Source of the DNA: Myxococcota bacterium | GTDB lineage: Bacteria; Myxococcota_C; UBA6777 | DNA: 15,124 nt | Assembly (NCBI GenBank): GCA_023150835.1 | Contig: JAKLKB010000153.1 | Coordinates: 1-15,124, forward strand | Direction of reading: 5' to 3' | Part shown: piece by piece, positions 543 through 15,124 of the stretch | Layout of the letters: every line of letters begins with the position of its first letter | Numbering within the stretch: position 1 is the stretch's first letter | Program-made: the position numbers and the translations under genes | The notes under the pieces: model-generated | What the model saw: the letters and a program-made list of their open reading frames with translations, nothing else | What the model was told of the DNA's origin: nothing | Database searches by the model: none

Positions 543-1586
543 ATGATCATTCAGCTAGATCCTTGGATTACAGGGGCGGATCGTCAGGTTTTGGAGGCTG
601 CGCTTGCGGCCATCGATTACAAAGCAACAGAAGTTCGGACACAAGAGCGCTTGTATCTTGTTGCCATCGGGAAGAAGGAATTCGATATCCGCAGCATCGG
701 GCATCTGCAAGGTGTTTGGGATGTGCATCGCGTCTCAGATGCTTACAAACTGGTATCGAAAAAATGGAAAGTTGGGCATTCAACGATCGAGGTAGGCGAT
801 GGGGTAAGCGTTGGAGGCGAAGAGATCGCGCTGATGGCGGGTCCGTGTTCGATCGAAGGAGAAGCGCAGATCGTCGAGGTGTTGACGCACCTGCGGTCGC
901 AAGGGGTGAAAGTGATGCGCGGGGGTGTCTTTAAGCCGCGCACTTCGCCGTATGCGTTTCAAGGGATCGGTTTGGACGGACTCAAGCTGTGGCACCAACA
1001 CGCCCGTGAGTTCGGCATCAAGATCATCTCCGAAGTGATGTCCGTCCAAGATATCCAACCGATGTATGACTTTTTGGATATCTACCAAGTCGGCGCACGA
1101 AACTCGCAAAACTTCGATCTGCTTCGGGAGTTGGGGAAAGTGGACAAGCCTGTGTTGATCAAACGCGGATTGTCAGGAACGCTCGAAGATCTCTTGCAAT
1201 CGGCAGAGTACGTCTTTTCGGGTGGAAACGAGCGCTTGATGCTGTGTGAACGGGGCATCCGCACGTATGAACAAGCCTATCGGAACACGTTGGATATCAA
1301 CGCGGTGGCGCTGTTGAAGGACAAAACGCATCTGCCTGTGATCCTCGATCCTTCGCATGGGATCGGGATTCGGCGCTTTGTGGAGCCCGTTGCGCTTGCG
1401 GGAGTGGCGGCAGGTTGTGATGGTTTGTTGTTTGAAGTCCACGCGATCCCAGAGAAAGCGTGGTCAGACGGTCAACAAACGCTGAACTTTGCAGAATCAC
1501 GGCGATTGATCCACAAAGCCCGCGAGCTGTTTTCTTTTTGTCGCGGCTTGGATCGGGCATTTCCTGTCGACCAAGACCTTGCTTGA
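543..1586 (+). CDS. aroF: 3-deoxy-7-phosphoheptulonate (DAHP) synthase with N-terminal regulatory domain
   Basis: Cytosolic enzyme of 347 residues that condenses phosphoenolpyruvate with erythrose 4-phosphate, the first step of the shikimate pathway. Residues 1 to about 70 look like the small ferredoxin-like regulatory domain of Thermotoga-type enzymes; the TIM barrel follows. Visible signatures are AGPCSIE (99-105), GGVFKPRTSPYAFQG (127-141), GARNSQNF (184-191), LIKRG (205-209), DPSHG (269-273) and the FEVH...SDG end. The presumed metal ligands are C102, H272, E298 and D309. The ATG has GGAG at 531-534, 8 bp upstream. aroB follows after 38 bp, so the two are probably cotranscribed. The N-terminal domain suggests feedback control by an aromatic amino acid, but which one cannot be read from the sequence. 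Confidence 0.95.
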   Translation: MIIQLDPWITGADRQVLEAALAAIDYKATEVRTQERLYLVAIGKKEFDIRSIGHLQGVWDVHRVSDAYKLVSKKWKVGHSTIEVGDGVSVGGEEIALMAGPCSIEGEAQIVEVLTHLRSQGVKVMRGGVFKPRTSPYAFQGIGLDGLKLWHQHAREFGIKIISEVMSVQDIQPMYDFLDIYQVGARNSQNFDLLRELGKVDKPVLIKRGLSGTLEDLLQSAEYVFSGGNERLMLCERGIRTYEQAYRNTLDINAVALLKDKTHLPVILDPSHGIGIRRFVEPVALAGVAAGCDGLLFEVHAIPEKAWSDGQQTLNFAESRRLIHKARELFSFCRGLDRAFPVDQDLA

Positions 1587-1624
1587 AGGCGGAGGCGAGA
1601 GACAAACCTTCTGGAGGTCGGATC

Positions 1625-2758
1625 ATGGGGCAGATACGCAAACGAAGATTGCAGATGTCGGTGTCTGCGGTGGGTTATGATCTGGTGATCGGTGCGGGGA
1701 TCTTGGAGTCGCTGCCGTCGTGGCTGGATTTGCGGAGATTTTCGCAAGTGGCGGTGTTGACGGATACGAACGTTGGCCCGTTGTGGTTGGAGGCGGTGGA
1801 GCGGGGTGCAGGGCGTTCGTTGCCTGTGTGGTCGATGCGTGCGGGCGAAGAACACAAGACCTTGGTGTCGTTGGAGGGGATCTGGTCGTGGATGGCGGAT
1901 ATCGGGATGGATCGCAATTCGCTGTTGTTGAATCTTGGAGGGGGACTGGTGGGTGATGTGGGTGGTTTTGCGGCAAGCTGCTATATGCGGGGGGTGGCGT
2001 TTGCACAATTGCCGACTACGCTATTGGCGCAAGTGGACGCAAGTGTCGGTGGGAAGGTCGGGATCAACTTTCGGGGGTTGAAGAATCTGTTGGGTGCGTT
2101 TCAACAGCCGTGTGCGGTGGGGATGGATATCCGCACGTTTGCGACGTTGCCACGACGGGCTTTTTTGGCGGGTGTTGCGGAGATGTTGAAACATGGACTG
2201 ATCCGCGACCGCGCTTATTTTGAGGAGATCGCTGCGTACGAATTCGGAGCGCTCGGCGCGAAAGAAGGCGAGGCATTGGGGGAATTAGGCGATGTGGCGG
2301 AGCAGACATGGGTGGATTGGATCGATCGTTCGTGTGCGATCAAAGCGGCGATCGTCGAGGCAGACGAACGAGAGAGCGGTGTGCGCAAGCTGTTGAACTT
2401 TGGGCATACGGTGGGACACGCGCTGGAGACGTTGTCGTACACGGCAGATACGCCGTTGTTGCATGGCGAGGCCGTTGGGTTGGGGATGATCGTCGAAGCG
2501 GAGATCGCGAGAATGGCGGGATTTTTGGAGGAGGGGGTGGTGGATACGCTGGTGGCGGTGTTGGAGCGGGTGGGGCTCCCAACGCGGCTGGGATTTTTGT
2601 TGGACGATGGGGCGCTTTGGTCGGCGATGCGGGCCGACAAAAAGAATGTGCGGGGAGCGATGCGATGGACGCTGTTGCAGTCGATGGGCGAGGGTGTGTT
2701 TGATCAACGCGTGGAGGACGCTGTTGTGGAAGCTGCGCTACAACGGATCCGATCGTGA
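1625..2758 (+). CDS. aroB: 3-dehydroquinate synthase
   Basis: Converts DAHP to 3-dehydroquinate with NAD+ and a divalent metal, the second shikimate step. The 377-residue length is normal. The NAD-binding stretch NLGGGLVGDVGGF (103-115) is followed by TTLLAQVDASVGGKVGIN (131-148). By family alignment E186 (AEMLKHG), H261 (NFGHTVGH) and H280 (LHGEAV) are the metal ligands and H265 a catalytic histidine. RADKKN sits near the C-terminus. I chose ATG 1625 because GGAGG lies at 1613-1617, 7 bp upstream. The frame is open further back, into aroF, but that part is unlike AroB. The codons are very G-rich. Downstream, the antisense nuclease-like gene separates aroB from the rest of the pathway genes. 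Confidence 0.96.
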   Translation: MGQIRKRRLQMSVSAVGYDLVIGAGILESLPSWLDLRRFSQVAVLTDTNVGPLWLEAVERGAGRSLPVWSMRAGEEHKTLVSLEGIWSWMADIGMDRNSLLLNLGGGLVGDVGGFAASCYMRGVAFAQLPTTLLAQVDASVGGKVGINFRGLKNLLGAFQQPCAVGMDIRTFATLPRRAFLAGVAEMLKHGLIRDRAYFEEIAAYEFGALGAKEGEALGELGDVAEQTWVDWIDRSCAIKAAIVEADERESGVRKLLNFGHTVGHALETLSYTADTPLLHGEAVGLGMIVEAEIARMAGFLEEGVVDTLVAVLERVGLPTRLGFLLDDGALWSAMRADKKNVRGAMRWTLLQSMGEGVFDQRVEDAVVEAALQRIRS

Positions 2759-2867
2759 TACGGGTGACGTAGCTGATAAAGAGTCCACGGAAATCACGGA
2801 AAGAAGACAGAAAGTGGAGCAGAAAAAGAGTGGGGTGGCGTGGGCCAAAACACGGGCAGTGTGGTGT

Positions 2868-3773
2868 CTATGCTTTTTTCTTGCGGGGGGAAGTGGTTTT
2901 GGGAGGAGCGGGTGGTGGTGAAGGGGGAGGCGCGAGTGCGGCGATCTCGTCGAGGGAAAGGCCGGTGGCGGCGGCGATCAGGGCGTGTGGGAGTTCTTGG
3001 GCGAGTAGATTTTTGGCGATCTCTTGTCGCTCGACTTTGCGGCCTTCTTCGCGGCCTTCTTCGCGGCCTTCTTCGCGGCCTTCTTCGCGGCTGAGTTGTT
3101 TGGTGTGTTCCCAAGCGGCTTCGTCTTTGAGTTTGGTGAATTCTTCGGATGTGAAGGCTTGCTTTTGAACGGAGAGAAAAGCGTGTTGGAGGGTGGGGTG
3201 CTGTTGGTAATGTGCGAGATCAACGGAGTTATCGAGGGAGTCTTGGACAGCTTGAAGCCAGAGGCGGAGGTTGGGGGCGATGTGCTCGTTGAGGAGGTTG
3301 GGGTTGAGGAAGATCAGACGGTGAGGAAAGAGGTTGTGCTCGTGTAGGTATTCGTCGATGGATTGGAAAGAGACGTTGAGTGTACCGAAAAGGCGTTCGG
3401 TGTCTTTGGGCAGGCTGGTGAGCATGACGATGGTGTAGACGGTTTTTCCAAAGCGATAGTCACGGAAGTTGTGGACTTGCTCGATCATGCCGATGAGATG
3501 GTAGTAGAGAAAACGGTCGAAGAAGTCGGATTCGTAAGCGTGCTGGACTTCAACGATGATACGGCGCTGTTTGTCCTCGGCGAATAGGTCGTATTTGAGC
3601 TTTACGCGACCGATCTGCTCGTGGTAGCTGTACTCTTGGATGACTTCATCGACTTCAAACTCGATGTTCAGGACATCACGGACAAAGGCGTTGAAGACAT
3701 CGACCTGACCAAAGGCTTTTTTGAAGGCGACATCGTAGCGCAGGGGAATGACTTCGATGATGTTGGATGCCAT
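2868..3773 (-). CDS. Rpn family / PD-(D/E)XK nuclease-type transposase-like protein
   Basis: A 301-residue protein of the Rpn (recombination-promoting nuclease) / PDDEXK_2 family. The N-terminus (DVAFKKAFG, 14-22) leads into the nuclease core: D62 in KYDLFA and E75-V-Q77 in IIVEVQ fit the D...ExQ version of the PD-(D/E)XK site, followed by RFLYYHLIG and FGKTVYTIVMLTS. A charged region with four exact EEGR repeats (230-245) precedes an IAKNLLAQELPHALIAAATG-type helix and a Pro-rich, Lys-ending tail. Length and layout are typical of the family. Start ATG 3773 has GGAGG 9 bp upstream on the - strand. It lies antisense between aroB and aroA-aroK, as if inserted into the operon. The family is linked to RecA-independent recombination; the role here is unknown. 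Confidence 0.85.
   Translation of the reverse strand: MASNIIEVIPLRYDVAFKKAFGQVDVFNAFVRDVLNIEFEVDEVIQEYSYHEQIGRVKLKYDLFAEDKQRRIIVEVQHAYESDFFDRFLYYHLIGMIEQVHNFRDYRFGKTVYTIVMLTSLPKDTERLFGTLNVSFQSIDEYLHEHNLFPHRLIFLNPNLLNEHIAPNLRLWLQAVQDSLDNSVDLAHYQQHPTLQHAFLSVQKQAFTSEEFTKLKDEAAWEHTKQLSREEGREEGREEGREEGRKVERQEIAKNLLAQELPHALIAAATGLSLDEIAALAPPPSPPPAPPKTTSPRKKKA
3039..3086 (-). repeat. 12-bp tandem repeat inside the Rpn-like gene
   Basis: Four perfect head-to-tail copies of GCGGCCTTCTTC on the + strand, encoding Glu-Glu-Gly-Arg four times on the - strand. Copy-number changes would keep the reading frame and only lengthen or shorten a charged helix. The same low-complexity tail is common in this protein family. 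Confidence 0.9.
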
Positions 3774-3868
3774 GAGCAAAGACCTCCGTCGGTTGGGCGT
3801 TTTTGGGAAGATGAGGTTGCCACAGCAGAAGCAAGCACGCAAGGGTGGTAGCTGTGAGATGGATATCC

Positions 3869-3980
3869 AAGTGGTGCATGATCGCGATGTCGACGCGATC
3901 CGCTGTAATTGCCCTGTTTTTGGGCAGCCACAGGGGGCTGCTCCACCATTTTGCGATTACATGATGGGCGGATTTCGTAT
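3869..3980 (+). repeat. 112-bp dispersed repeat, copy B
   Basis: Aligns without gaps over about 112 bp to the copies at 7519 and 13863. Shared blocks are GTCGACGCGATC near the left, the GGGCAGCC / GGCTGC hairpin arms in the middle and GGGCGGATTT at the right. It lies between the divergent Rpn-like gene and aroA-aroK. Its right end joins AAG to give TATAAG (3978-3983), 33 bp before the aroA-aroK start, which could serve as a -10 element, though no good -35 is visible. Confidence 0.85.
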
Positions 3981-4016
3981 AAGTCCTCTGTGATCAAAAT
4001 AACGAAGGGAAAAAAC

Positions 4017-5969
4017 ATGGTGGAAGCGAATCGAGAGCATGGGCGGTGGTCGTTGTTGCGTGCGAGGGGGCCGGTGTGTGGGGAGTGGCGACTGCGTGGT
4101 TCGAAAAGTTATACGAATCGGGCGTTGGTGATGGCGGCGTTGGCGCAAGGCGAGACGCATTTGTGGAATATTTCGGAGGGGGATGACAGTCGGGCGTTGC
4201 TTGGGGCGTTTACGCAGATGGGGATCGGATGGGAGCGGGTGGGTGATGGGTTGCGTGTGTTGGGGCGCGGTGGTGATCTGCCCCGTTATTCGGGAGTGAT
4301 CGATGTAGGGGCGGCAGGAACGACGATGCGTTTTTTGATCGCGCTGTGTTCGCTGTTGCCAGAGAGCGAAGTGATCTTGCGTGGGAGTGCGCGGATGCAC
4401 CAGCGTCCTGTGGGGGATCTGGTGGGGGCGTTGCGTGCGTTGGGGGCGGATATCGCGTATGTGGGGCGGGAGGGATGTCCACCTGTGCGGATACGCGGGG
4501 GAAACGTTCGTGGTTCGGGGCCAGTGAGGGTGTCGGGAGAGATATCGAGTCAATTTCTGACGGCGATGTTGCAGATCGCGCCTGTGGTGGAGGGGGGATT
4601 GGATATCCGCGTGGAAGGGGCGTTGGTGTCGCGTTCGTATGTGGAGATGACGTTGGCGAGTCTGCGGCATTTTGGTGTGGAAGTGCAGCAGGAAGAGATG
4701 CAGCGCTTTGTGGTCCCCGCACAGCCGATACGTGGCCGCGATCTGAGGATTGAAGGGGATGCTTCGGGGGCGTCCTATCTGTGGGGGCTTGCGGCGTTGA
4801 GTCAGGGTTGTGTGCGTGTAAGTCCCTTGGGGTTGGACTCTTTGCAAGGGGACGCGCAGTTCTCTCGGATATTGGAGCAGATGGGGTGCATCGTTCGTTC
4901 AGGCGAAGGAGAGGCGGGGCCTTGGATCGAAGTCGAAGGGACGCAAAGGCTGTGCGGTGTGAAGGTGGATATGGAGCAGATGCCCGATACTGCGCAAACA
5001 TTGGCGGTGATCGCGGCCTTTGCAGAGGGGCCGACAGAGATGACGGGGCTTCAAACCTTGCGTCACAAAGAGACGGATCGTCTGGCTGCGTTGTGCTGTG
5101 AGCTCGGAAAGATGGGGGTTTTTGCAGAAGCTACCCACGAGGCGTTGCGGATCGTGCCGCCTGTTTCTACCCGAAGAGGCGCGCAGATCGCGACGTATGA
5201 AGATCATCGGATGGCGATGGCGTTTGCGATGGCGGCGACGCGGTTGTCAGGCATGGAGATCCTTGAGGCTCAGGTGGTCAGCAAGTCTTTTCCTGATTAT
5301 TGGGCGTGTTTGCGTTCTTTTGGGATCGCTTCTTTGGTGGATATCCCGTTGCGCGTGATCTTGGTGGGGTTTATGGGGAGTGGAAAAAGCGTGGTAGCGC
5401 GGGTGTTGTCAGAGCGTTTGGGGTACGATTGGATCGAAGCGGATCAAGAAATCTTGGCATCTTCGGGGCGAACGTCGATTGCAGAGATCTTTGCTGTGGA
5501 TGGGGAGCCTCATTTTCGGTTGTTGGAGCGGGCTTTTCTGGCTTCGGTGGAGAAGCGGCAACGGGTGGTGATCTCGACAGGGGGCGGTGCGGTGATGGAG
5601 GATGCGAATGTTCGGGCATTGCGTGCAGGTGGGGGAGTCTTGTGTTATTTGGAGACACCGTTTGAAGTGATCGCGGAACGCTTGCGTAATATCGCGGATC
5701 GTCCGTTGTTTCGGGATGGAACGCAAGCCGAAGCCTTGTATCGGCTGCGCGCACCGCGTTATGTGCAAGTCGCCGACCTCACGATCGCAACGGAAAGGCG
5801 GGATGTAGAGGGCGTTGTCGAGGCGTTGTTGGAGGCGCTTGGGCGGTGGGGTGAAGAGGCAGAGGCGGCGGCGGGAGTGAGTGGAACAGCGGCGGTGGAT
5901 GTGAGCGGAGTAGAGGGCGTAGGATTTGCGACCGCAGGAGCAGAGGCGGAAGGAGCAGGGGACAGATGA
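4017..5969 (+). CDS. aroA-aroK: Fused EPSP synthase - shikimate kinase (AroA-AroK)
   Basis: A 650-residue two-domain protein. Residues 1 to about 438 are 5-enolpyruvylshikimate-3-phosphate synthase: GSKSYTNRALVMAALA (28-43), GAAGTTMRF (98-106), SSQFLTAMLQIAP (177-189), LRHKETDR (348-355) and YEDHRMAMAFA (394-404). Residues from about 443 to 610 are shikimate kinase: Walker A GFMGSGKS (451-458), EADQEI (474-479, with Glu at the usual first Asp), FRLLE (500-504), STGGGAV (520-526), DRPLF (561-565) and RAPRYVQVADLTI (578-590). The domains therefore supply steps 5 and 6 of the pathway in one chain with almost no linker. An Ala/Gly/Glu-rich tail (about 612-650) follows. ATG 4017 is preferred because GAAGGGA precedes it at normal spacing; the longer frame starts inside the repeat. 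It overlaps aroE by 4 bp (ATGA). Confidence 0.93.
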   Translation: MVEANREHGRWSLLRARGPVCGEWRLRGSKSYTNRALVMAALAQGETHLWNISEGDDSRALLGAFTQMGIGWERVGDGLRVLGRGGDLPRYSGVIDVGAAGTTMRFLIALCSLLPESEVILRGSARMHQRPVGDLVGALRALGADIAYVGREGCPPVRIRGGNVRGSGPVRVSGEISSQFLTAMLQIAPVVEGGLDIRVEGALVSRSYVEMTLASLRHFGVEVQQEEMQRFVVPAQPIRGRDLRIEGDASGASYLWGLAALSQGCVRVSPLGLDSLQGDAQFSRILEQMGCIVRSGEGEAGPWIEVEGTQRLCGVKVDMEQMPDTAQTLAVIAAFAEGPTEMTGLQTLRHKETDRLAALCCELGKMGVFAEATHEALRIVPPVSTRRGAQIATYEDHRMAMAFAMAATRLSGMEILEAQVVSKSFPDYWACLRSFGIASLVDIPLRVILVGFMGSGKSVVARVLSERLGYDWIEADQEILASSGRTSIAEIFAVDGEPHFRLLERAFLASVEKRQRVVISTGGGAVMEDANVRALRAGGGVLCYLETPFEVIAERLRNIADRPLFRDGTQAEALYRLRAPRYVQVADLTIATERRDVEGVVEALLEALGRWGEEAEAAAGVSGTAAVDVSGVEGVGFATAGAEAEGAGDR

Positions 5970-6802
5970 TCGATGCGAAAACGCAGATCTGTATGATCTT
6001 GGGAGATCCTGTTGCGCATAGTTTGTCGCCAAAGATGCACAATGCGGCTTATCAAGCGTTGGGGATCGCGGAGCGTTTTGTGTATGTTGCGGCGCATGTG
6101 GGTTCAGAAGAACTGGGGCAGGCGGTGGCAGGGGCGCGTGCGATGAAGTTTCGAGGGATCACGTGTACGATCCCGCACAAGACGGCGATCTTGCGATGGT
6201 TGGACGAAGTGGATCCGATCGCACAGCAGATCGGCGCGGTGAATACGGTGGTTTGTGAGCAGGGTTTGTGGGTGGGGTACAATACCGATTGGCAGGGGAT
6301 CATCGGGCCGCTCAAGCAGCAGCGATCGCTTGTGGGGGCGCGAGTTGCGGTGATCGGTGCGGGGGGGACGGCGCGAGCAGCGGGATTTGGATTGCGTGAA
6401 GAAGGGGCGCGGGTGGTGTTTTTGAATCGCACCGTCGAACGCGCTAGGGCGTTGGCCGATGCGCTCGGTGGTGAGGCTTATGCGCTCGAACACAGCGAAG
6501 TGATCGCGGCGTGTGATATCGTGATCCAAACGACTTCGGTGGGGATGTCGCCCGAGGTGGAGCGTTCACCGCTGTCGGCTTCGGTATTTCGCTCGTCGCA
6601 GCTGGTGATGGATGCGATCTATACGCCGATGCAGACGCGGCTTTTGCGCGATGCCCAAGAAAAGGGCGCGTCTGTGATCTCGGGCATCGAGATGTTTTTG
6701 CAACAAGGAGCAGCGCAGTTCGCCCTTTATACGGGTCTTTCTGCTCCGATCGAAGTGATGCGCGCTGTGGTTGTGGAGGCTTTGGGAAAACAGGATGTTT
6801 GA
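5966..6802 (+). CDS. aroE: Shikimate dehydrogenase (NADP+)
   Basis: Reduces 3-dehydroshikimate to shikimate with NADPH, the fourth pathway step; 278 residues, the normal length. The substrate-binding SLSPKMHNAAY (19-29) is followed by TIPHKTAI with the catalytic lysine K72, GAVNTV (90-95) and GYNTDWQG with the catalytic aspartate D108. The nucleotide-binding loop is GAGGTARA (131-138), followed by NRTVERA (154-160), whose Arg suits NADP. QGAAQFALYTG (247-257) closes the active site. The start is translationally coupled: its ATG overlaps the aroA-aroK stop as ATGA, with AGGAG about 10 bp before. The 3' end overlaps the aroD start by 8 bp, so all three genes are tightly linked. Confidence 0.95.
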   Translation: MIDAKTQICMILGDPVAHSLSPKMHNAAYQALGIAERFVYVAAHVGSEELGQAVAGARAMKFRGITCTIPHKTAILRWLDEVDPIAQQIGAVNTVVCEQGLWVGYNTDWQGIIGPLKQQRSLVGARVAVIGAGGTARAAGFGLREEGARVVFLNRTVERARALADALGGEAYALEHSEVIAACDIVIQTTSVGMSPEVERSPLSASVFRSSQLVMDAIYTPMQTRLLRDAQEKGASVISGIEMFLQQGAAQFALYTGLSAPIEVMRAVVVEALGKQDV

Positions 6803-7520
6803 GAGAGAGCAAGAAAGCCCGAAGGGACGAGAGATCGCTTACTGTTTGTCGATTGCATCGGGGACATGGTTGGACGCATCGCGGGCGATGGAGCAGTGCT
6901 TTTCGGTGTATCGGTATGTGGAGTTGTGGCTGGATCTTGTTGAGGGGGTGGAGATCGAGGAAGTCAGGGCGCTTTGTCGGCGTTGGCCAGATCGGATCGT
7001 GCTGTTGTTTCGGCGTCCACAGCTTGCGGCGATCCAGATGCCTCAGACGCAGCGGGTTGGTTGGTTGGTTGCATTGGCTGCGGAGCCTGTGTGGTTTGAT
7101 CTGGATACCCCTACACAGGCCGAAGATCTGCGCGATTGGTTTGCACTGCCCCAACGCCCCAAGCTGATCTTGTCCCATCACGACTATACCACCACGCCTT
7201 CCGAAGAGAGGCTTGCTGCGCTTTTGGCGGAGATGAAAGCGTGTGAGCCGACAGTCATCAAGATCGCGACCTATTGTCAGCAGCCCGAAGATGCTTTGCG
7301 ATTGTTGCGATGGCAGGTGGCTTTGCGACGAGAAGGCTTGCGTGTGATCGTCTTGGGGATGGGAGAGCATGGCGTGATCACGCGGATATTTGGGGCGCTA
7401 TGGGGCAATGAGATGAGTTTCGCCCCCCCTACCCCAAAACAAGCGTCTGCTCCCGGGCAATTGACGCGGGAACAGATGGAGGCGGTATTTGCGCTGCTGC
7501 GGGCGCAAGACGAGATCTGA
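6795..7520 (+). CDS. aroD: Type I 3-dehydroquinate dehydratase
   Basis: Dehydrates 3-dehydroquinate to 3-dehydroshikimate through a Schiff base, the third pathway step. The 241-residue length matches the family. Visible are SHHDYTTTP with the general acid/base histidine H129, VIKIATY with the Schiff-base lysine K156, GMGEHGVITRIFGALWGN with R197, and SAPGQL (218-223) with the substrate-loop Ser and Gln. By-eye alignment to E. coli AroD gives E43 for E46 and R73 for R82, but Trp for R48 and Leu for E86, so the sequence is divergent. ATG 6795 is 8 bp inside the end of aroE; a TTG at 6771 is an alternative, 8 residues longer. Its stop codon overlaps the left edge of repeat copy C. Confidence 0.87.
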   Translation: MFEREQESPKGREIAYCLSIASGTWLDASRAMEQCFSVYRYVELWLDLVEGVEIEEVRALCRRWPDRIVLLFRRPQLAAIQMPQTQRVGWLVALAAEPVWFDLDTPTQAEDLRDWFALPQRPKLILSHHDYTTTPSEERLAALLAEMKACEPTVIKIATYCQQPEDALRLLRWQVALRREGLRVIVLGMGEHGVITRIFGALWGNEMSFAPPTPKQASAPGQLTREQMEAVFALLRAQDEI

Positions 7521-7630
7521 GAGAAGTGTACGCGAAACGTCGACACGATCGGCTGTGGCAGCCCTGTTGTTGGGCAGCCACAGGGGGCTGCCCCTACGTG
7601 TTGTGATCGTATCATGGGCGGATTTTGTGA
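7519..7630 (+). repeat. 112-bp dispersed repeat, copy C
   Basis: Gap-free match over about 112 bp to copies B and D, starting with GAGAGAAGTG (shared exactly with D) and ending with GGGCGGATTTTGTG. The central stem GGGCAGCC (7572-7579) pairs with GGCTGCCC (7586-7593) around ACAGGG. It sits at the 3' end of aroD, with its first two bases inside the stop codon, between the convergent aroD and fmdB-type genes. Confidence 0.9.
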
Positions 7631-13862: not shown

Positions 13863-13974
13863 GAGAGAAGTGCATACAAAGGGTCGATGCGATCTGTTGT
13901 AAACGCCCTGTGGTTGGGCAGCCACAGGGGGCTGCCCCTACATTTTGCGATCACACAACAGGCGGATTTTGTAT
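13863..13974 (+). repeat. 112-bp dispersed repeat, copy D
   Basis: Best-preserved copy for structure. CCCTGTGG (13906-13913) can pair with CCACAGGG (13922-13929), while GGGCAGCC (13916-13923) can pair with GGCTGCCC (13930-13937). The two stems overlap and exclude each other. The copy sits between convergent genes and ends within a base of the stop codon of the cysteine-rich gene (13974-13976, - strand). Confidence 0.9.
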
Positions 13975-15124
13975 CAGCGTTTGCAGATGACGGCGGCACA
14001 GGATTGACGGGCTTGACGGATAAGACGGAAGTAGGCTGTGCCTTTTTTGCAACGTGCGCGGACTTGGTGGGCGGGGCAGACGAGGGGGACACATTGCCAA
14101 CGCAAGCAAGCACGAGGACCCAAGAAACGCTGAACAGGGACGGCGATGGCCTGTCTGGGGCAGTTGGTTCGTGTGTTCATCGGGGGGCATCCTGCGTGGG
14201 CTTGGAGGACCGTTTCTTGGGGCTGAACACATCGGTACATCGGGCAACCGACGCCACGAAGGATATCTGCGGTTAGGCGCAAGACGCGACCTGTTGGACA
14301 ACCGACAGGGCGAGGTTGGGGACAACGCGGATCAGCAGCGTGTTTGGGTGTGGGACGGAAGGTGTGCTGCGGTCGGAAAGTGGGCTGTGTCCGATGTGGT
14401 GGTCGGAAGGTGGGTTGTGTCCGAAGTGTGGGACGCAGCGTGGGATGTGGCCGGTGTGGTGGGCGAAAAGTGGGATGTGGCCGGTGTGGTGGGCGAAAAG
14501 TGGGATGTGGCCGGTGTGTCGGAGTGGGTGGAAGGGTTGCGACAGGGGCAGGGCAGATCCATCGGTAGCAGGTTTGTCGGTGGTGGATGTAGGCTTGTTT
14601 GAGGGGAGCGCCAAAAGAGCAACGCAAGGGCCTGAGGGGAGGGCATGGTGGAGTGGCACAACGCAGGCGAGTGCAGACTTTTCCAAGGAAGGTAAAGGGG
14701 GTGGGTCGGGGGCGTTGTCCTGCGGTGCATTGTGGGGGCGGATAGGTGGGGCATTGGATAGGGACACATCGGAAGCGCTGGCAGGAAAGGCCGAAGTATC
14801 GGTAGGGTTCGGCTTTGGGCATTTGATTTGGGCGACAAGACGGGGTGACGGGGGGGCATGTGGTGATCGGTGTGCAACGGGTTCGTCTACAGCGAAGTCC
14901 TTGGTGAGCAAAGGCTTCGATGCGGGGTTGTGTTCCGGGGCGGCAGCGCTGGGGTCGTTCGGCAGGGCAGCGAGCGGGGATGCAGGTGGTTTTTTCGCAA
15001 CGCAAGGAGGCAAAATTGTAGGGGGTGCGTTGAAGGAGAAGGCCTGAGCCGCAATAGGTGGGGCCGCTGGGTGGGCATTGGACGCGTTGGCAGATCCAAC
15101 GTTGGCAGGAGATGCCTTGGAAGG
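13974..15124 (-). CDS. Cysteine-rich repeat protein, partial (5' end outside window)
   Basis: The frame is open from its stop at 13974-13976 to the window end (about 383 residues), so the true start is beyond 15124. At least five consecutive units of 35-37 residues share the pattern C-x4-C-x4-C-P-x6-C, for example CEKTTCIPARC and CQRFRCVPIQC, often preceded by an aromatic residue and Gly. A Pro/Thr/His/Arg linker with repeats of HRPHPTFRPP follows, then further cysteine units (CPMYRC, CLRWQCVPLVC, CAAVIC) to the end. The regular cysteine spacing across non-identical DNA argues for a real gene. The composition suggests a disulfide-rich secreted or surface protein, but the signal peptide region is not visible and I do not recognise the family. 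A TTG at 15003-15005 could be read as a start, but the repeat pattern continues above it. Confidence 0.8.
   Translation of the reverse strand, partial: FQGISCQRWICQRVQCPPSGPTYCGSGLLLQRTPYNFASLRCEKTTCIPARCPAERPQRCRPGTQPRIEAFAHQGLRCRRTRCTPITTCPPVTPSCRPNQMPKAEPYRYFGLSCQRFRCVPIQCPTYPPPQCTAGQRPRPTPFTFLGKVCTRLRCATPPCPPLRPLRCSFGAPLKQAYIHHRQTCYRWICPAPVATLPPTPTHRPHPTFRPPHRPHPTFRPPHRPHPTLRPTLRTQPTFRPPHRTQPTFRPQHTFRPTPKHAADPRCPQPRPVGCPTGRVLRLTADILRGVGCPMYRCVQPQETVLQAHAGCPPMNTRTNCPRQAIAVPVQRFLGPRACLRWQCVPLVCPAHQVRARCKKGTAYFRLIRQARQSCAAVICKR
14440..14518 (-). repeat. 30-bp tandem repeat (minisatellite) in the cysteine-rich gene
   Basis: About 2.6 perfect copies of a 30-bp unit starting GTGGGATGTGGCCGGTGTGG on the + strand (14440-14469, 14470-14499, partial 14500-14518). 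Each encodes a ten-residue block of the HRPHPTFRPP linker on the - strand. Degenerate copies continue to about 14340. The perfect identity implies recent expansion, and copy-number change would keep the frame. Confidence 0.92.

Follow-up and report, generated by a model that had tools for sequence, protein, structure and literature searches.

What protein does the cysteine-rich reading frame at one end of this myxococcotal DNA belong to, how much of that protein is present, and what might it do? We addressed these questions for a stretch of 15,124 nucleotides (the window), which is the entire contig C96 of a 239-contig, 7.56-Mb assembly (G000).

A four-cysteine repeat gene, its continuation, and its orthologs

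The frame runs on the minus strand from 15122 to 13974 and encodes 382 residues, with no stop before the window edge and a stop at 13974. Cysteine makes up ∼10% of the repeat body, and its spacings there are nearly invariant (7-17-4-4, corresponding to CP-x6-C-x17-C-x4-C-x4), defining a unit of 36 residues. Eight full four-Cys units were observed in the ORF, compared with a mean of 0.01 and a maximum of 1 in 2,000 composition-preserving shuffles. A first, sequence-only reading had described a Cys-rich repeat with near-fixed spacing and a Pro/Thr/His linker followed by more units up to the C terminus, and both descriptions were borne out, three further units being present after the linker (Table 1). 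Inspection of the Cys spacings revealed no CxC or CxxC motif in the main array, and a Cys unit closes the protein, with no hydrophobic segment at the C terminus.

The same reading had taken the protein to be larger than the window. We located the remainder at the start of contig C8 of the same assembly, where a 528-codon open frame composed of the same 36-residue units runs off the contig. Exactly 13 bases, read in one and the same frame, are shared between the end of C96 and the beginning of C8. Furthermore, in the sister MAG KLAP109 (Myxococcota; G001), one unbroken ORF of 887 residues (L036:8945-11608) spans both pieces and is 90% identical to the window part. Because this ORF is uninterrupted, we rejected the idea of two separate repeat genes on C8 and C96. 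By this comparison, the C8/C96 junction is an assembly break, and the window contains the C-terminal ∼380 of ∼880 residues, or 40%, of a protein of ∼21 units.

Antisense ORFs overlapping the repeat were considered as the gene and rejected: they are ∼56 to 64% identical between the sisters, compared with 90 to 91% for the minus-strand frame, and their lower conservation marks the minus-strand frame as the gene. Between G000 and G001, dN/dS was 0.12 (0.118) in the window part, with third codon positions holding 90 of the 131 differences, and 0.15 in the C8 part, whereas most other frames exceeded 1. Among the five other frames of the window part, four lay at 1.6 to 3.1, and the antisense frame with the coinciding wobble base gave 0.17.

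Table 1. Positions of the repeat gene and its parts in the window
Feature	Position	Strand	Basis or remark
Cys-rich repeat gene, C-terminal ∼380 codons with stop	13974..15124	-	5′ end beyond the contig; 90% identical to part of L036:8945-11608
13-bp exact overlap, ATGCCTTGGAAGG, with bases 1 to 13 of contig C8	15112..15124		Shared reading frame; junction to the upstream gene part
Unit 13, C-terminal part, FQGISCQRWICQRVQ	15078..15124	-	Cys spacing
Unit 14	14970..15077	-	Cys spacing; predicted β-hairpin (AF2 three-unit model)
Unit 15	14859..14969	-	Cys spacing; predicted β-hairpin in both AF2 models
Unit 16	14754..14858	-	Cys spacing; predicted β-hairpin in both AF2 models
Unit 17	14646..14753	-	Cys spacing; predicted β-hairpin (AF2, full window ORF)
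Unit 18, final unit of the main array, ending on its fourth Cys	14541..14645	-	Cys spacing
Low-complexity Pro/Thr/His/Arg linker with HRPHPTFRPP repeats	14325..14540	-	Predicted disordered, pLDDT ∼30; DNA contains a 30-bp tandem repeat (5.2 copies) at 14361-14518
Unit 19, opening the C-terminal module	14217..14324	-	Cys spacing
Unit 20	14079..14189	-	Cys spacing; AF2 hairpin E325-334/E337-346, pLDDT < 50
Unit 21, whose Cys-Lys-Arg end is the C terminus of the protein	13977..14078	-	Cys spacing

Orthologs are present in four genomes (G000, G001, G003, and G004), with frames of 887 to 1,053 residues and 21 to 24 units; the G003 ortholog has 1,053 residues and 24 units, and the G004 ortholog has 1,032 residues and 23 units. 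A profile search with the unit, as the sequence-only reading had proposed, thus found homologs with the Cys pattern: a three-unit profile matched four of the five genomes searched from the same phylum and none of 381 others, and plasmids contained no match. In the fifth genome, G002 (930 contigs), the array was not found, and the linked phosphatase gene (see below) and a neighbor gene were likewise not found as an orthologous locus; true absence and a missing contig cannot be told apart there.

In all four genomes with the array, a PP2C phosphatase gene on the same strand immediately precedes the array gene, and the genomes have further neighbors in common. The phosphatase was identified with Pfam in the sister and assigned by similarity in the other genomes. 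In G000, it is located on C8 (L008 1615-2862, minus strand), with orthologs on L031, L032, and L033; in the protein, a transmembrane segment is predicted, after which come a Pro-rich stretch and a tail very rich in Arg and Lys, which in G003 comprises tens of residues of almost pure Arg.

Outside the cysteines, identity among the units of one array is only ∼26%. Units of the same index in different genomes are 33 to 43% identical outside the cysteines, compared with 23 to 26% when the order is permuted, and in every comparison 0 of 20,000 permutations scored as high as observed. Since same-index units resemble each other more than permuted ones do, the array has not been remade by recent tandem duplication, and each position has been kept. 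Unit order is thus conserved, and the dN/dS values place the gene under purifying selection. Every array opens on the first cysteine of a unit (C1) and closes on the fourth (C4). Unit 10 lacks C2 and C4 and retains C1 and C3 in all four genomes (spacing 4,4,22,4,7). The body of all four orthologs is strongly basic, with a pI of 9.5 to 10.5 and a net charge of +78 to +187.

We also found short relatives with signal peptides, containing 3 units (G000:C41), 5 units (G003:C116), and 8 units (G004:C65). The unit profile matched them with E values of 2e-23 to 2e-8, and hhalign gave 97.8% for C65. Like the array protein, these paralogs combine a signal peptide with tandem CP-x6-C ... Y-x-Y-x-G-x2-C-x-R units, but they have 3 to 8 units only and no linkers, and C65 has two extra cysteines per unit. 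The C65 paralog (L034 5307-6425, minus strand; eight units of six cysteines each) showed a sub-threshold Pfam match to Toxin_7, a spider knottin family (23.5 bits, below 27), a resemblance that is likely convergent.

Predicted fold, disulfide pairing, and export

The family had gone unrecognized in the sequence-only reading, and our searches agree: neither the window protein nor 18 three-unit segments, as single sequences and as a unit profile, matched Pfam, NCBIfam, or PDB, and phmmer of the ORF against PDB returned nothing. Ribosomal L18, the sole PDB match of the unit profile (E 0.04), was judged a chance hit.

With three window units and five relative segments as input (6 sequences), AlphaFold2 (AF2) predicted a two-stranded β-hairpin in each unit, with strands at 13-22 and 25-34 (mean pLDDT, 90.9; pTM, 0.50). 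A model of the full window ORF from two sequences had a pLDDT of 46 overall; units 15 to 17 were again predicted as hairpins and the linker as disordered. Because AF2 used only 6 sequences and reached a pTM of 0.50, the arrangement between units is not fixed by the model, and a linear rod is assumed. Foldseek and VIA fold searches yielded no significant match (Foldseek E values of at least 2.6; no VIA match at Z ≥ 2), which does not prove a new fold. Argos (3c9a), Spatzle (4lxr), and VWF C4 (6fwn) resemble the predicted unit in being small disulfide-rich β-hairpin modules, but their fold matches were not significant (Foldseek E ≥ 2.6).

In the AF2 model, C3 (27) and C4 (32) both lie on the second strand at an odd residue separation and would thus point to opposite faces; bonds from C1 and C2 could then staple the Pro-rich loop to the hairpin on both sides. 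The joint loss of C2 and C4 from unit 10 suggests that bonds form within the unit, most likely C1-C3 and C2-C4, and arrays that start on C1 and end on C4 fit such pairing.

The lineage has ample genes for the production of disulfide-rich proteins. DsbA-like domains number 12 to 23 per genome across all five genomes of the phylum, and the proteins with five or seven such domains have an intact CPFC/CPYC motif in each. In G000, we noted a 1,426-codon frame with seven Thioredoxin_4 domains and seven CPFC motifs (C128; L077 1216-5493, minus strand), a lipoprotein with an LVGC lipobox and five DsbA-like domains (C40; L078 957-4208, minus strand), a longer frame ending in two DsbA-like domains (C113; L080 845-2659, minus strand), and a VKOR-DsbA-DsbA fusion (C83; L079 3-2306, plus strand). 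Multi-DsbA proteins also occur in G002, where the array was not found, so the link between DsbA and the array is general and not specific.

Export is predicted from the N termini of three orthologs, which are signal-peptide-like: MKWILFSCVVLFSTATSRC (G001), MRPWAFSILALFVALQSGLVGC (G004), and MRFTLYLFSSMVLPFLATTC (G003). The lipobox ([LVI][ASTVI][GAS]C) is canonical in G004 (LVGC) and non-canonical in G001 (TSRC) and G003 (ATTC). Lipidation of the array protein is thus only weakly suggested, because one of the three signal peptides has a canonical lipobox. In the MAG of the window, an ATG and a hydrophobic stretch are present on C8 (L008 ∼1380-1500) but out of frame with the repeats, since the 5′ segment lacks 91 nt relative to KLAP109. 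Misassembly, a programmed shift, or recent loss could each account for this out-of-frame start; the low dN/dS speaks for a gene that had been under selection, at least until recently. A gene start bearing a signal peptide, which the sequence-only reading had sought upstream, is therefore present in relatives but out of frame in the window's own MAG. Its suggestion of an extracellular, disulfide-rich structure is favored indirectly, by the signal-peptide-like N termini of three orthologs and of the paralogs, the even and conserved cysteines, the hairpin model, and the oxidative-folding genes.

Candidate roles of the array protein

We propose, with a probability of about 0.6, that the array protein is an exported, cationic rod or string of beads made of disulfide-stapled hairpins, specific to this lineage, which functions as an adhesin or as a scaffold of the envelope or matrix and is probably anchored in the envelope. 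In such a protein, 21 to 24 tandem four-Cys units would each consist of a Pro-rich N-terminal loop (C1 and C2) followed by a β-hairpin with C3 and C4 on the second strand, and two disulfides per unit would staple the loop to both hairpin faces, making each unit a rigid cationic bead on a string. The signal peptide would direct passage across the inner membrane, the N terminus would probably be anchored in the envelope as a lipoprotein via a Pro-rich or low-complexity stalk, and a second flexible linker would display the small C-terminal Cys module. A charge of ∼+80 to +190 and Tyr/Arg-rich hairpins would most likely allow binding of polyanions (LPS, exopolysaccharide, or DNA) or of a partner. 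It is from this charge and architecture that we infer a scaffold or adhesin as the most likely role.

We rate the array as a new repeat family within a known kind, that of exported Cys-rich repeat proteins, with an unusual length and regularity; regular long disulfide-rich repeat arrays are better known in animals than in bacteria. More tentatively, it may represent a new family of disulfide-stapled β-hairpins confined to one lineage, in which each positionally conserved unit has its own partner or task within a large, cationic scaffold of the envelope, whose maturation would fall to the unusual multi-domain DsbA oxidases of the lineage. If the fold is confirmed, a repeat family absent from current domain libraries would be gained. 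The four-Cys hairpin unit and the tandem DsbA-domain proteins together would make it possible to study, in bacteria, the oxidation of many-disulfide proteins and the function of surface rods.

In kind, the array protein comes closest to the Cys-rich stalk region of myxobacterial TraA. Like the array protein, which is predicted to be exported, TraA is an exported protein with Cys-rich tandem repeats (TIGR04201, Myxo_Cys_RPT); these were proposed to form a rigid cell-surface stalk presenting a PA14 domain (PMC3325183). The TIGR04201 model has 22 positions and three invariant cysteines, whereas the array protein has a 36-residue four-Cys unit. NCBIfam scans detected no TIGR04201 match at E ≤ 1 in the window protein and 18 three-unit segments and no MYXO-CTERM tag (TIGR03901) in the C-terminal 382 residues, and the full-length 887-residue ortholog contains neither PA14 nor any other Pfam domain. 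We thus rejected a TraA-type protein on all three features; a stalk-like role is possible despite their absence. The Cys units would then act as a rigid spacer presenting the small terminal module in a TraA-like cell-surface recognition system. The array protein likewise combines an extended array with a flexible linker and a separate C-terminal module, and TIGR04201 repeats are frequent in these genomes, where many other proteins matched, so the lineage uses proteins of this sort. Still, we regard a recognition stalk as rather unlikely, given the lack of any recognizable ligand domain and of TIGR04201 and MYXO-CTERM matches, and since a passive spacer would not need the conservation of unit order and of individual units that we observed.

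The Arg/Tyr-rich hairpins, the high net charge (+78 to +187), and the secreted short forms of 3 to 8 units also bring to mind a multivalent cationic antimicrobial or predation factor, with protegrin-type disulfide hairpins acting on neighboring membranes. We consider this improbable, as the units are joined within a single large protein, the likeness to hairpin peptides does not extend beyond composition, and no immunity gene or secretion apparatus was recognized adjoining the array gene. Least probable, despite the ∼10% Cys of the body, is a metal- or redox-active protein (a metallothionein-like store or a thiol buffer) in place of a disulfide structure, since the main array lacks CxC and CxxC, its cysteines are even and conserved per unit, the relatives have signal peptides, the confident hairpin model puts two cysteines on one strand, and the six-Cys paralog gains its cysteines as a pair.

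Other features of the window

A shikimate pathway gene cluster occupies positions 543-7520 on the plus strand. The Pfam check covered only the dehydroquinase at 6771-7520; the ORF at 3909-5969 reads, from its translation, as an EPSP synthase-shikimate kinase fusion. On the minus strand, 2868-3842 encodes a PDDEXK_2 transposase-family protein, which has a short tandem repeat of REEG close to the C terminus. Finally, a dispersed, REP-like palindromic intergenic repeat, GGTTGGGCAGCCACAGGGGGCTGCCCCTAC, is found in the window at 7568-7597 and 13912-13941, with 0 to 1 mismatches where none would be expected by chance, and also at L008 4421-4435.
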